A DNA stretch of 51,867 nt from Lentisphaerota bacterium. Lineage in GTDB: Bacteria > Verrucomicrobiota > Lentisphaeria > Victivallales > Victivallaceae. The DNA is taken from assembly GCA_015061495.1 (NCBI GenBank), contig SUWL01000011.1, positions 1-51,867 of the forward strand, read 5' to 3'. Positions 7,007-51,867 of the stretch are shown in pieces (position 1 is the stretch's first letter; the number at the start of each line of letters is the position of its first letter). The translations under genes were made by a program, and so were the position numbers. The notes under the pieces were generated by a model, which did no database searches, was not told the DNA's origin, and was given only the letters and a program-made list of their open reading frames with translations.

Positions 7007-8011
<1,005 letters not shown>

Positions 8012-18241: not shown

Positions 18242-19045
18242 ATGTACAAAACACATCATTCATCCCGTTCCGGGATGAAGCCCATGGGCTTCACTCTGAT
18301 CGAACTGCTGGTCGTAATTGCCATTATTGCCATTCTGGCGGCGATCCTGCTGCCCGCTTTGAACAAAGCGCGTGAATCCGGCAGAAATGCCAGCTGCATC
18401 AGCAACCTCAACCAAAATGCGAAATTACTGCTCATGTATATGGGCGACAACGATGACTGCTTCCCTGATGGCGGTTTAGGACAGAATGTCGACACGATAA
18501 TTTACCAATGGTGGACACAGCTTTATTGGCGAGGCGGCAGTATGGAAATGGTCAACTGTCCATCTGCAGTTGCTCCCGCCAACGCCACGAAATGTACCTT
18601 TTATGACACTGCAGGCAATGCACTTACTGAAACTCCGAATGCTTTCATCGGCTTCAACGTTCAGTTGGGAGCAAGCAATGCCGGATCCACGGTCAGTTCC
18701 AGCGGACACTCCATCGGCGGCAACAGTTTTATCATCAAAAAAGCATCTCTGCTGAAAAAAGCCGCACCCGCATTTTTTGACACCAACAACAGATACGGCT
18801 TTATGCCCGGAGATAACACTGAAGCTGTATTGACCGGCAGCTTGCCGGTACCCACCGCAGCCAATGGCGGATTTTACTGGCGGCACAACGGCAAAGGAAA
18901 CATCGTATTTACCGATGGTCATACCGCCAGTTACACCGGTGTCGAATTGTGGGACACCGTCAAAAACAATGCGGCATCCGCCGCCGGCAAATCGGGTTAC
19001 GGTGCGACCTTCCCTGAATTGAACTGGTGGCTCAAAGGTCAATGA
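18242..19045 (+). CDS. Prepilin-type H-X9-DG protein (intact, no cassette)
   Basis: A 267-residue protein with AAAGGA before ATG 18242. The leader ([16 protein letters not shown]) ends in Gly, followed by [27 protein letters not shown], a textbook type IV prepilin signal. The C-terminus has [13 protein letters not shown] (H-X9-DG). Its FTLIELL codons (TTCACTCTGATCGAACTG) differ from those in the cassette-bearing genes, so it serves as the uninterrupted reference. It is separated from the preceding operon by a terminator and its own promoter, and is followed by a strong terminator. Confidence 0.92.
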
Positions 19046-28418: not shown

Positions 28419-29510
28419 ATGAAAACAGCGACCGATGCAGATGTAAACCGCCGATCACCCAAACGTCTGTCACCCATAGAGATATCATCTCAAAGAAGTC
28501 CGCTTTTCTTAAAAAGGGAAGTGGGGTTTGGGGAGAGGGGAAAAACCTCTTTTCCCGTGAAAAGAAGTTTTTCCTCTCTTCCCAAGAGCGCATTTACTTT
28601 AATAGAATTGCTGGTGAGTAAAACTTGTCAAATATGTGTTTCGCCGTTGTATTATTTTCAAAAAAGTACTCCGCTTTTTTTGAAAGAGAAAGGGGGCGCG
28701 GGGGAAAGGGAAAACTTTTTTTCCCGTGAAAAAAAGTTTTCCTTGTCCCCCGCACACTCCCATTTCACTTTAATAGAATTGCTGGTAGTCATTGCTATCA
28801 TAGCGATATTGGCGGCGATTTTGCTTCCGGCGCTCAATTCTGCCCGGGAGCGCGGCAAAAGTTCGGGGTGTCTCAATAATCTCAAGCAGATGGGGTTGGG
28901 TACAGCCATGTATGCGGATGATTATGATGGTTCGGCGATGATGAAATTTGGTTACGATGGCGGAAACGATGATTTTCCCTCGTTTTTTCTGGCATTTGCA
29001 CTTGCCAAAGGCACTTTGCGCGGACCGAAAGCCGGCGGAACGAGAACTTTCGCACCTTATCTGGCATCTGCGGATGTGATCGTCTGCCCCGGAGCACCGT
29101 CGGATATCAACGATGAACTGGTTGACAAGCGCACCTCTGCCGGAGGCGCAAGTGGTTTTTACGGGGTGTATTTCCAGTTTGACACGGTTCCTTATGTAAA
29201 CAGCAATGATCATCCTGTCAAAGTTGGTGCGGACAATTACCGTTATGCATGGAACTTCAAACGGCTTCATCAATCTTCGGATGTGCCGCTTTATTTTGAA
29301 AGCTGGAACCACTCTAAAGGCCGTCAGCACTGCAATTTGAGCAACAGCGGCTACAATCTGCATTTCCGTCACAACCGTCAGACTAATATCATTTTTGCCG
29401 ATGGTCATGTCAGCGCGTTTACTCCGGAAGGATTCGTAAGCAAAATGAATGGTCCGGTAACGTTGTGGAAAGTTACTGTCGGCAATACCAAAATGGATAT
29501 TCAGAAATAA
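28419..29510 (+). CDS. Prepilin-type H-X9-DG protein with two tandem hairpin cassettes
   Basis: A 363-residue frame from ATG 28419 (AAGGAGG upstream). The first 117 residues are cassette-coded: cassette A2 ends in FTLIELLV, a short linker ([15 protein letters not shown]) follows, then cassette B1 ends in [27 protein letters not shown]. The real pilin helix is therefore more than 110 residues from the ATG, far too long for a normal leader. An in-frame GTG (28557) lies in cassette A, but no in-frame start is obvious in B. The C-terminus has [13 protein letters not shown] (H-X9-DG). It precedes the DUF4838 gene by 24 bases, so they are probably co-transcribed. Confidence 0.85.
28500..28615 (+). 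repeat. Hairpin cassette A, copy 2
   Basis: Hairpin arms 28530-28554 and 28559-28583 with loop CCGT. It ends with ACTTTAATAGAATTGCT-GGT. Same sequence as 7728-7843 apart from a few bases. In-frame GTG at 28557. Confidence 0.85.
28614..28636 (+). other. Candidate serine-recombinase attachment scar
   Basis: After the GT at 28614-28615 come 21 bases that match the inverted end of the recombinase element (51766-51746) at 15 of 21 positions, including AAACTTGT and AAAT, at the same distance from a GT. Likely a leftover half-site (inference). Confidence 0.45.
28671..28796 (+). repeat. Hairpin cassette B, copy 1
   Basis: Different arms from cassette A (GGGGGCGCGGGGGAAAGGG... pairing with CCTTGTCCCCCGCACACTCCC), but the same loop CCGT and the same coding end, ACTTTAATAGAATTGCT-GGT. 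It stays in frame. A truncated relative lies at 32098-32150. Confidence 0.82.
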
Positions 29511-31992: not shown

Positions 31993-33198
31993 TTTACTTC
32001 GATTGCTCCGCAAGCAAATACTGTTGCCCAGGTCCGGCACTTTTTCGAGCAAAAATTTTTCCGCACGGCGGGGCATGATCTGTCATCCAAAAATATCCCG
32101 CTTTTTTTGAAAGAGAAAGGGGGCGCGGGGGAAAGGGAAAACTTTTTTTCTCGCCCGCTCGGCGGGTCGCGGAAAAACTCGCCCTTCCGTCTTCGTTTCA
32201 CTACGCCGCGACGAGTCGCTTCGCTGGGGCTCGGACAATATATATCCCGAAGAATACCGCTTTTCTTGAAAAGGGAAGTGGGGTTTGGGGAGAGGGGAAA
32301 AACCTCTTTTCCCGTGAAAAGAAGTTTTTCCCCTCTTCCCAAGAGCGCATTCACTTTAATAGAATTGCTCGTCGTTATTGCGATTATCGCGATATTGGCG
32401 GCGATACTGCTGCCGGCACTGAATAAGGCAAGTCAGGCAGGGCACAAAGCGACCTGTCTCAATAACCTGAAGCAGAACGGCATCGGCTGGATGCGCTACA
32501 CCGATGAAAATGACGGAGTGCCGATTCCCAGAAACATGAGCGGATCCGGATTCAATGACAGTTACAAAAAACAATTCCGCTGGTCGGAATACGGTACCCG
32601 CAACAATTACTTCGGAGAAAAAATCTATGTGGAAAACGGCCTTTCTCCCACAAGTAACACCGAAGGATGGTATTCGGAAACGCTGGTTTGCCCCTCTGCG
32701 GCAGGTGCCGGGGAAGATGTGCGCGTTTACGCTAATATCCCGATCAAACTCACCTATGCATACAATGCTTATATCAACATCAAGACCAAACTGGGTTCAA
32801 CCAACTATGACCGTTTCCGTTATCTGGGAAAAATCAAAGAGGTCACCAAGCCGAGCATCACGGTCGTAATGCTTGATGACTGGAGAAGATCCTTTACCAC
32901 CAAGGTCAGCTCCGGCTTGCGCAGCACCAATGCATTGTACGCTCCCACCATCTCCTCTGCCAGCGGAGTTGTCGGCGGGCTCTACAGCTGTTTCGGTGCG
33001 TATGGTGCACACAACAATATGGCAAATGTCCTCTATTTTGACGGACATGCGGAAAACACTGCCACATTCCAGTTGGTATCTTACGACTACAACTCTTACA
33101 ACACATTCGACACCTGGTACATGCCGTCAAGCAGTGCTGACCAGAAAAAAGGAGCATTGAAAACCGTTTCCCTCGACAATCCCGGAGTCATATATTAA
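31972..33198 (+). CDS. Prepilin-type H-X9-DG protein; start uncertain, possible phase-variable gene
   Basis: The frame is open from GTG 31972 (408 residues), but no ribosome site serves that codon. The natural ATG (31920, after AGGAGA) is one base out of frame because of the two 34-bp repeats; with one repeat unit it would read straight into this protein. A third option is the in-frame GTG at 32314 in cassette A3, which gives a standard-size prepilin of 294 residues (leader [12 protein letters not shown], then [13 protein letters not shown]). The region before the pilin helix contains segment L, a truncated cassette B, a GC-rich insert and cassette A3. The C-terminal part has [13 protein letters not shown] (H-X9-DG). 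The gene overlaps the convergent FAD oxidoreductase gene by 11 bases. Confidence 0.75.
32037..32150 (+). repeat. Segment L copy 2 followed by truncated cassette B
   Basis: 32037-32100 repeats segment L (see 7841-7904). 32098-32150 has the left arm of cassette B and stops at the loop, where a GC-rich sequence (32151-32256) takes over. The right arm is missing. Confidence 0.75.
32151..32256 (+). repeat. GC-rich insert related to intergenic repeat R
   Basis: On the minus strand 32207-32184 reads GGCGTAGTGAAACGAAGACGG..., matching 39236-39259 in repeat copy 3 at about 21 of 24 bases. It also contains TCGCTTCGCT as in the tRNA-linked repeats. It has broken into cassette B while keeping the frame open. 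Confidence 0.55.
32257..32372 (+). repeat. Hairpin cassette A, copy 3
   Basis: Arms 32287-32311 and 32316-32340, loop CCGT, GTG at 32314 in frame. It ends ACTTTAATAGAATTGCT-CGT, coding FTLIELLV. Confidence 0.85.
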
Positions 33199-50977: not shown

Positions 50978-51745
50978 TCAACGTTTGTTCGGATGGTAAT
51001 TGGGATTGAAAAGGTCGGGGTAGATAATATCATCTTTCGCCGCCACGTGTCCGTCGCCCCACAGGACATTCGCTCCGGAAGCATGGGTGCGGTATTCACC
51101 GTAACTGGAGGGATAATTGTTCTGATCAGTACAGGTCGTCGTATGACGGGAACCGTTGATCTTGAAGAAATTCAGCATCCCTTTGCGATAGTAGGCAGTG
51201 GCATTGTCAAAAACGACCGGCACTTCGGAAACAGAAAAATCCTGCAGTTTGGACATTTTGGGCAGTGCCGGCAGATCTTTGACCGGAATATTCAGTTCAT
51301 CTTTGGCGGTCTGAGCGGTGATCCCGAGGTGGACATTGTAACCGTAACTGAATGCGATCCTGCCGCCGCGTCCGCCGAGGTAATTCCCGGAGGCAACAAA
51401 ATCTTTGATCTCATCTCTGCCGACGGCACAGGAAAGAAAACTCATCGGAGTGGAATAGATATCTACAGTATCCGGCAGATAATCGATCTTATACGGGGTT
51501 GAACCCTCCTGCACACCGGGGATCCCGACTCCGGCAGCAGCCGACAGCAGCACTACCCAACTGTAAAAATTGCCATCAGCGCGGCTTGGCAGCAGAAATC
51601 CGTCAAAGTTGTCCTGATAAAATGCGTGCCATGCAGAGTGCTGTTTGAGGGTATTCACACATTCGGAACTTTTGGCTGAATTTCGCGCACTGTTCAATGC
51701 CGGCAGCAGAATCGCCGCCAGGATGGCTATTATCGCAATGACTAC
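50978..51745 (-). pseudogene. Prepilin-type H-X9-DG gene cut off at its signal by a recombinase element
   Basis: Reading the minus strand, the frame begins [30 protein letters not shown] and ends with a good H-X9-DG motif (HASGANVLWGDGH). The start codon, leader and FTLIELL are missing. Immediately upstream of the VV codons the sequence changes, and an in-frame TAA lies at 51760-51758. The missing 5' half is expected at the far end of the inserted element, outside the window. Excision would restore the gene, so it is interrupted and not decayed (inference). TTG 51697 could give a leaderless fragment. Confidence 0.8.
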
Positions 51746-51766
51746 AAATGAAACTTGTTAAATTAG
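51740..51766. mobile_element. Left junction of a serine-recombinase element in a prepilin gene
   Basis: To the left is prepilin coding DNA (GTAGTCATTGCG in the gene's sense). To the right is foreign sequence carrying AAACTTGTTAAAT (51751-51763), which also forms the -35 region of the recombinase promoter. The likely crossover is at GT (51745-51744), the same place where similarity between hairpin cassettes ends in the other prepilin genes. Confidence 0.6.
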
Positions 51767-51783
51767 GGTTTTGGTGTTATATT
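51755..51783 (+). promoter_or_regulatory. Promoter of the serine recombinase gene
   Basis: TTGTTA (51755-51760), 17-base spacer, TATATT (51778-51783), 36 bases before the ATG. The -35 box lies inside the element's end sequence. Confidence 0.6.
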
Positions 51784-51819
51784 ATGGTGGAATAAAAAAC
51801 GAAATTTGGAGGAAGATTT

Positions 51820-51867
51820 ATGAAAGCTCTGATTTATGCCCGTCAAAGCAGTGGTAAAGATGATCTG
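51820..51867 (+). CDS. Serine recombinase, N-terminus only
   Basis: Sixteen codons are visible from ATG 51820, with GGAGGA (51808-51813) at ideal distance: MKALIYARQSSGKDDL. The stretch YARQSS carries the catalytic serine and is the usual start of resolvase/invertase-type and large serine recombinases. Such enzymes cut both DNA strands with a 2-base stagger and integrate or excise DNA at specific sites. Being at the very end of an element and reading inward is typical for an integrase. Its size class cannot be seen because the gene runs off the window. Confidence 0.75.
   Translation, partial: MKALIYARQSSGKDDL

Follow-up and report, generated by a model that had tools for sequence, protein, structure and literature searches.

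Introduction

Shufflons, Hin-type switches, and integrons place a constant leader or promoter and alternative downstream parts beside a recombinase. Rickettsia palindromic elements (RPEs) are short hairpin repeats that are inserted in frame in coding genes, and they enter many unrelated genes. In comGC, codon 20 lies within the conserved prepilin motif. Pneumococcal prophages encoding the serine integrase Int2b integrate in comGC between nucleotides 58 and 59, which abolishes the function of the gene (PMC7600539). According to a large survey, competence genes are over-represented among the targets of serine recombinases, and one clade of these enzymes is multi-targeting (PMC10083194). Integration of serine integrases in genes, including one prepilin-type case (comGC), is thus known. 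A multi-copy prepilin attachment site, frame-keeping derivatives, and silent pilin arrays were not found among the titles and abstracts listed by searches of the open PMC set.

Here, we analysed a stretch of 51,867 nucleotides (the window), which is contig C35 of G000, an assembly of 2.67 Mb in 123 contigs with 89% completeness. We consider it highly probable, on sequence comparison, that the DNA of the prepilin signal is an attachment site with exchange at or near a GT dinucleotide, that full elements silence the pilins they enter, and that short derivatives enter the same site in frame.

Results

A cut prepilin gene adjoins the start of a recombinase gene at the window end

The right edge of the window holds the body of a minus-strand prepilin gene, beginning at the first Val codon (V1) of VVIAII, and, just beyond it, the start of a gene for a large serine recombinase (Table 1). 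The first-pass annotation had reported this junction, which proved real; its boundary at position 51740 did not hold, because that position falls inside the next codon and the GT core lies slightly further out. In the prepilin frame, a stop is present five codons upstream of V1 (upstream codons *QVSF). The prepilin fragment had no Pfam match at 0.001, and no relative of this pilin with an intact signal was found at E ≤ 1e-25 in the other 33 genomes of the genus set.

On the element side, ACTTGT constitutes half of a proposed inverted repeat, ACAAGT-N7-GT-N7-ACTTGT, and is overlapped by a stretch that, by eye, resembles a promoter consensus. There are 74 nt between the core GT and the recombinase ATG, and 16 codons of the recombinase are contained in the window before the contig ends; they are nearly identical to the recombinase start in L045, and the full-length relative is P0001. 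Elsewhere in the same genome, the 133-nt element end had no second copy (the best other match had E = 0.002 over 25 nt), nor did tblastn with P0001 give a recombinase match in G000 at E ≤ 1e-40. First-look query matching gave 86 prepilins in G000 and 275 in Victivallis vadensis, all of them candidates only. As part of the explanation given above, the window very likely ends in the attR, or right junction, of a mobile element with a gene for a large serine recombinase.

Table 1. Positions of the features discussed, in window coordinates unless a locus is named
Feature	Position	Strand	Basis
In-frame insert of 198 bp with another left-end type (GTAAGCAGTACTCGG...) within a prepilin signal, with a new FTLIELL at its end	7730..7927	minus	
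Uninterrupted prepilin signal, an example of an empty attachment site	18290..18330	plus	sequence
In-frame ACTTG-type insert of 171 bp (GTGAGTAAAACTTGTCAAATATG...) within a prepilin signal, with a new FTLIELL at its end	28614..28784	plus	
Prepilin 3' part, starting at V1 (GTA) in VVIAII and including the stop; lacks the 5' half and its FTLIELL	50978..51745	minus	sequence
Proposed crossover core GT (AC on the plus strand), boundary of host prepilin and element	51744..51745		junction comparison
Element end (P arm): 7-nt spacer AAATGAA and ACTTGT	51746..51758	plus	sequence, relatives, pattern test
Promoter-like stretch: TTGTTA (51755-51760), 17 nt, TATATT (51778-51783)	51755..51783	plus	by eye
GGAGGA, likely ribosome-binding site of the recombinase	51808..51813	plus	by eye
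First codons of the gene for the large serine recombinase (MKALIYARQSSGKDDL), cut by the contig end	51820..51867	plus	sequence; relatives L045, P0001
Possible cargo genes	L072 8793-9917, 10730-11866; L177 12028-17179		Pfam

The same junction recurs in related genomes

We searched for the element end in a genus set of 34 genomes and a family set of 78 genomes, most of which were assembled from metagenomes and are fragmented at these repeats. The element end was present in three of the 34 genus genomes. In the family set, the 151-nt query matched 10 of 78 genomes at E ≤ 3.2e-11, with 127-151 nt in common, and 12 at E ≤ 0.001. All ten (G000, G011, G025, G037, G056, G058, G071, G073, G074, and G075) displayed the element end abutting a prepilin body at the same codon, and the pilin sequence deeper in the body differed among them. 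The proposed arrangement, namely a prepilin gene cut at VVIAII, lacking its FTLIELL half and adjoined by a recombinase gene, was thereby confirmed. Matches in G020 and G027 and second matches in G011:C10 and G025:C113 were dropped, as they comprised a promoter-like match of 26-46 nt with no pilin junction.

Five of the contigs (the window and those of G011, G025, G058:C40, and G071:C129) stop about 122-139 nt past the core, as they might if the junction were a one-off broken prepilin gene or an assembly chimera at a contig end. Breaks at this distance are, however, also what an element with several flanks within the sample would produce. Moreover, the same junction is present in ten genomes and on at least 29 contigs overall, and in the cultured V. 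vadensis DSM 14823 (taken to be G075) it lies mid-contig in NZ_QEKH01000019.1, making an isolated lesion or artefact extremely improbable. For V. vadensis, the best relatives of the split pilin had 38-42% identity, too distant to call, with three of nine Victivallis genomes matched, its own included. The FTLIELL half was absent from the first 60 of the 111 kb of the V. vadensis contig, where only two intact prepilins were found.

Recombinases beside split prepilin signals belong to one clade

P0001, encoded in G074, is a complete protein of 560 amino acids with Resolvase, Recombinase, and zinc-ribbon domains (PF00239, E = 1e-09; PF07508, E = 2.8e-07; PF13408, E = 2.5e-06). Pfam gave no DUF4368 match for it, and no relatives in the PDB were found at 1e-3. 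Across 11 aligned recombinases, Y6, R8, Q9, S10, R103, and R106 were invariant, and these residues represent the catalytic Ser/Arg set. All three domains were also found in L080, in L179 (559 amino acids), and in L073, with the zinc ribbon below the cut-off in the last; L071 had Resolvase and Recombinase domains and no zinc-ribbon match. Thus, where it can be read in relatives, the gene at the junction is not an unrelated short fragment and encodes a full-length large serine recombinase.

A tblastn search with P0001 gave 15 matches in 12 of the 78 family genomes at E ≤ 1e-40, and inspection upstream of 12 matches revealed further junctions in G071:C14, G056:C6, and G056:C7. In G071:C14 the core codon is ATC and not GTN, so the core may not be strictly GT. 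We also scanned GTDB species contigs with the 11-sequence alignment; the best 80 of 189 confirmed stretches corresponded to 79 loci. The first 29 loci (L172-L200) were mostly labelled Lentisphaeria or Victivallales. Within this best 80 of 189, 20 of the 29 top loci (21 with L193 counted) had a split or leader-bearing prepilin signal no more than 1.8 kb from the recombinase start; the nine loci examined among the 50 lower-ranked ones had none. The nine top loci without a counted prepilin link were L185 (for which 168 nt of upstream sequence could be inspected), L188, L189, L190, L192, L193, L197, L199, and L200; among these, L189 has its split signal at 2.2 kb, and the prepilin found 1.4 kb from L193 carries a short insert.

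In total, at least 29 contigs carry recombinases of one clade beside split prepilin signals: 11 from element-end junctions and the upstream checks of tblastn matches, and 18 from the wider recombinase searches. The expectation that related genomes would have the same recombinase beside prepilin genes was accordingly borne out, and the same contigs support the earlier suggestion that many prepilin genes offer the element many homes. In a midpoint-rooted tree of 37 recombinases, with prepilin-linked labels assigned by hand from locus inspection, the 20 linked rows fell within one clade of 23 rows (support 90/81), whose unlabelled rows were L185, L188, and L189. The labels required three changes on this tree, compared with a mean of 12.6 after shuffling, and none of 500 shuffles was as low.

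Some loci stood apart. The recombinase of L079/L200 (G062:C59) begins at about 9290, where a yifB/comM-type frame (Walker A identified by eye) is cut; another recombinase branch may use this type of gene as its target. L174 lies on a contig binned as Clostridia, and its recombinase and prepilin junction are very near those of Victivallis, so that a binning error is probable. At L073 (G068:C128, 8767-9173), the recombinase is divergent from a start codon with a prepilin signal about 240 nt away; foreign sequence follows this signal, and ordinary-looking chromosomal genes lie on the other side. Among viral contigs, DNA patterns for the recombinase N terminus and for the junction each gave 0 matches, and P0001 gave two pattern stretches, neither of them confirmed.

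Far ends carry the missing prepilin half

From one arm (ACAAGT-N7-GT) and one insert in the window, we predicted that the far end of the element would read FTLIELL-GT-N7-ACTTG. This pattern had 174 matches in 30 of the 78 family genomes, compared with nine for the reversed pattern; V. vadensis (G075) accounted for 16 of the matches. A stricter version had 89 matches in 14 of 387 phylum genomes, all in the same order, and its control had none. Three matches, L081 (G037:C31), L088 (G058:C54), and L107 (G071:C77), were identified as large-element far ends, each joined to a prepilin 5' half that begins with ATG; L108 (G073:C20) is probably a fourth, cut by the contig end. L113, also considered as a large far end, was rejected: here a short insert runs directly into a pilin body, and the signal has been partly lost.

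One locus, L179 (Lentisphaeria RGIG9948), has the VVIAII half, the recombinase, and the FTLIELL half on a single contig. Its element contains only the recombinase, with 1,838 bp between the two cores; the two ends have six bases in common, GTGGTT, and joining the flanks restores an open prepilin frame. The matching 5' half that the first-pass annotation had sought at the far end therefore exists in these loci. Both attP-type arms were seen around a shared dinucleotide and the predicted far-end motif was recovered, and from these sequences we infer that the core dinucleotide GT is common to attP and attB. Together with the same-codon junctions in all ten genomes, the two ends of L179 and its restored frame uphold the proposal that the conserved DNA of the pilin signal is the chromosomal attachment site, with crossover at or near the GT.

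The four large-element far ends read TGT-TAA, with a stop codon, and the short inserts described below read TGT-CAA or have another sense codon, as expected if inserts are kept translatable. A more general rule, that large-element ends always read TGTTAA, was dropped, as the recombinase ends of L069, L176, and L177 read TGTCAA.

Short inserts at the same codon keep the prepilin frame

Short inserts that keep the gene readable, and the possible pilin switch discussed later, had not been foreseen in the first-pass annotation. Inserts of the main type start with GT-N7-ACTTG like the far end and finish with a fresh FTLIELL before the GT-VIAII of the host gene. We read 90 pattern regions: four (L083, L084, L099, and L106) were chance pattern matches outside a prepilin signal, a few were large far ends, and the remaining readable ones were inserts. 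Under a strict motif there were 85 distinct left junctions, the window included, and a right end lay within 900 nt in 63 of them; 62 of these 63 inserts had a length that is a multiple of three and no stop. Five more, all in frame and stop-free, were found among the regions that the strict motif had missed. Overall, 67 of 68 inserts were in frame without a stop, and 17 of the 18 distinct lengths were multiples of three; the exception, L105 (G068), is 182 bp long and brings its own ATG. Lengths were mostly 168-234 nt, within a range of 147-654 bp. For 22 junctions no right end was seen: the contig stops within 330 nt in 19 of them, and the other three are L081, L107, and L113.

Stacks of two or more inserts were found at L091, L123, L149, L279, L295, and L299. 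Left ends of a non-ACTTG type were present in four of the 68 inserts (that of the window at 7730-7927, L091, L123, and L149). Other left-end types were also noted at L272, L279, and L299, at L123 and L149, and at L309 and L334 (VKRSHLCCDRVYGKEEG..., V[TS].AQQNC..., and VTSQLCRDFFKRF...); this variety suggests several element families using the same codon. In the window, a near-identical leader stands ahead of several prepilins (32258-32370, and before 28614). For the leader at 32350, no upstream split signal was found, and it is probably an older insert whose left part has been lost.

The left end of the insert, searched without its prepilin part, had 65 matches in G000, G008, G016, and G024, none in G075, and none in the control. 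A prepilin motif stands in front of 58 of the 65. Five of the other seven were inspected: four lay in decayed prepilin signals, and one was cut by a contig end. The decayed signals read FPLIELP, FTLIELP, FPLIKLP, and LFTPL, and such changes suggest that the first signal has become dispensable. Comparison of related pilins revealed occupied and empty sites: a pilin of G008:C3 has a 234-bp insert that is missing from G020:C50 (66% identity over about 117 amino acids) and G013:C322 (60%), and its relative in G016:C147 (65%) holds a different insert. A third insert type is present in G016:C79, whose relative in G008:C17 has 73% identity.

The right ends of the inserts bear on how they spread. They have no P arm there and end in a prepilin 5' half instead, an arrangement that standard attP x attB integration leaves unexplained and that needs either a permissive TndX-like recombinase or gene conversion. 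The inserts could accordingly be leader cassettes spread by homologous recombination or gene conversion, or RPE-like repeats with another mover, in either case with no part for the serine recombinase. The FTLIELL of the insert offers homology to every target, copies are stacked, and the single copy that was folded (28614..28784) forms a strong hairpin (z = -6.4 against shuffles), all of which fits such a spread. In addition, some FTLIELL bases at the right end differ between copies of one insert in G008, so limited gene conversion is possible. The inserts of V. vadensis and Victivallis (L109 and L110) resemble known far ends only near the core: the G058 far end agrees with them at 22 and 25 of the first 50 positions, and the G071 and G037 far ends agree with eight inserts at 23-30 of 50 positions and at 13-18 of the first 20 nt.

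The left ends argue against this account. G008 has 20 nearly constant copies of the 234-bp insert, with flanking bases that vary outside the GT: mean diversity is 0.27 before the GT and 0.06 after it at the left end, and 0.03 before and 0.19 after it at the right end. Since conversion tracts should normally extend into the flanking bases, a left boundary exactly at the GT, with varied bases directly before it, is not what gene conversion predicts. Four inserts also agree with the G058 far end at 42-45 of their first 50 positions; for the window copy and the G008 type, the figures are 39 and 26. Spread independent of the serine recombinase is thus a serious possibility, though one to which we assign the smaller part of the probability, and we favor derivation of the inserts from the recombinase element.

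Inverted pilin copies flank the recombinase at three loci

At L180, L183, and L184, a leaderless pilin pointing left is followed by the recombinase and by an FTLIELL leader fused to a pilin pointing right. The pilin copies within these loci are identical at 70-72 of 72 nt from the GT on and at 10-20 of 40 before it; over the pilins, identity is 75% for the L180 pair and 54-55% for L183. L184, which is the same locus as L072, has a promoter-like stretch before the leader, seen by eye and at that locus only, and further leaderless pilins at 3.8 and 5.7 kb with genes for a Fic protein and a YhcG-type nuclease between them. All three loci thus display the anatomy of an invertible switch, namely a recombinase segment, inverted sites, and two alternative fusions. 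With sites placed in inverted orientation, flipping of the segment between them could change which pilin is fused to the leader, and the loci may represent a pilin switch, a suggestion drawn from this anatomy.

The inverted order also raises the question of whether the recombinase is mainly a resident pilin-switching enzyme, with the mobile copies as escapees. The inverted state of the same locus was not seen at L180, L183, or L184, and both L179 and the ten attR cases have the appearance of simple insertions, which makes a primarily resident role unlikely; insertion of a mobile element remains our preferred reading of those cases. More broadly, the signal codons may form a genome-wide recombination hub in Victivallaceae, at which a clade of large serine recombinases would join any leader half (FTLIELL-GT) with element ends or with any body half (GT-VIAII). 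The products would be selfish insertions, frame-keeping leader inserts that stack as older signals decay, and an integron-like or invertible locus where a single leader is connected successively to silent whole-pilin cassettes bearing Fic/YhcG-type cargo. We offer this wider proposal only tentatively.

Genes for Fic, YhcG/DUF1016 nuclease, and HepT-like proteins and for an ISL3 transposase were observed beside recombinases or pilin bodies and are possible cargo. An integrase at one end together with att junctions, a feature of the ICE type, was found. In V. vadensis, the recombinase frame, of only 299 amino acids, is directly followed by a gene for a coupling protein (PF12696, E = 8.4e-14); about 19 kb further along, a TraG-type P-loop ATPase is encoded (PF19044, E = 2.4e-08). 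Pfam detected no relaxase among the eight proteins scanned, which represent a part of the element, and in L173 and L177 the scanned frames that follow the recombinase matched no conjugation family.

Discussion

In the mechanism that we propose, the recombinase would use the DNA of the prepilin cleavage and methylation motif as its attachment site, with strand exchange at the GT of the first Val codon or close to it, and with ACAAGT-N7-GT-N7-ACTTGT or a variant as the site of the element itself. Since each genome has many prepilin genes, the element would have many equivalent homes. A full element parts the signal from the pilin body and would thereby silence the pilin; its excision would restore it. 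The short derivatives, composed of one element end and their own in-frame FTLIELL, would be inserted at the same GT to give a longer, readable prepilin. The recombinase would catalyse insertion of the element and move the short inserts in trans. That the element moves at all is something we infer from comparison of sequences.

One conserved protein motif, repeated across the genes of one genome, would then serve as a landing site. If this is true, it accounts for part of the odd, long prepilin leaders in Lentisphaerota, provides a possible new route to pilin variation, and points to recombinases with a defined, repeated, protein-coding target. The idea is directly testable in the cultured V. 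vadensis DSM 14823, which has both the junction and many far-end pattern matches.

Among known systems, integration of Int2b in comGC resembles the present case in that a serine recombinase acts inside the 5' part of a prepilin-type gene (PMC7600539). That system, however, concerns a phage and one fixed gene, and the consulted parts of the report mention no target family, short inserts, gene-keeping leaders, or silent arrays (PMC7600539). The TndX/TnpX-like multi-targeting clade, as far as the consulted parts of the survey describe it, has many attB sites per genome and a dinucleotide core, as here (PMC10083194). Unlike in that clade, the many sites here are one protein motif in a paralogous family, and P0001 lacks a DUF4368 match. 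Like RPEs, the inserts place a hairpin-forming sequence inside a coding gene without breaking its frame (67 of 68; z of -6.4 for the one copy folded). In contrast to RPEs as described, they occupy one codon of one gene family, with 58 of 65 left ends behind a prepilin motif and not in many unrelated genes, and have an end in common with a recombinase element. They also differ from MITEs, in that one end is common to an autonomous element (42-45 of 50 nt for four inserts, G058:C54) and the other is a prepilin 5' half, so that both ends are not shared. Finally, the possible switch loci compare with shufflons, Hin-type switches, and integrons at the level of anatomy. The enzyme here is a large serine recombinase and not Rci, Hin, or IntI, the recombinases scanned having serine-recombinase domains in place of the tyrosine integrase IntI of integrons, and the part exchanged would be the whole mature pilin and not its tip.
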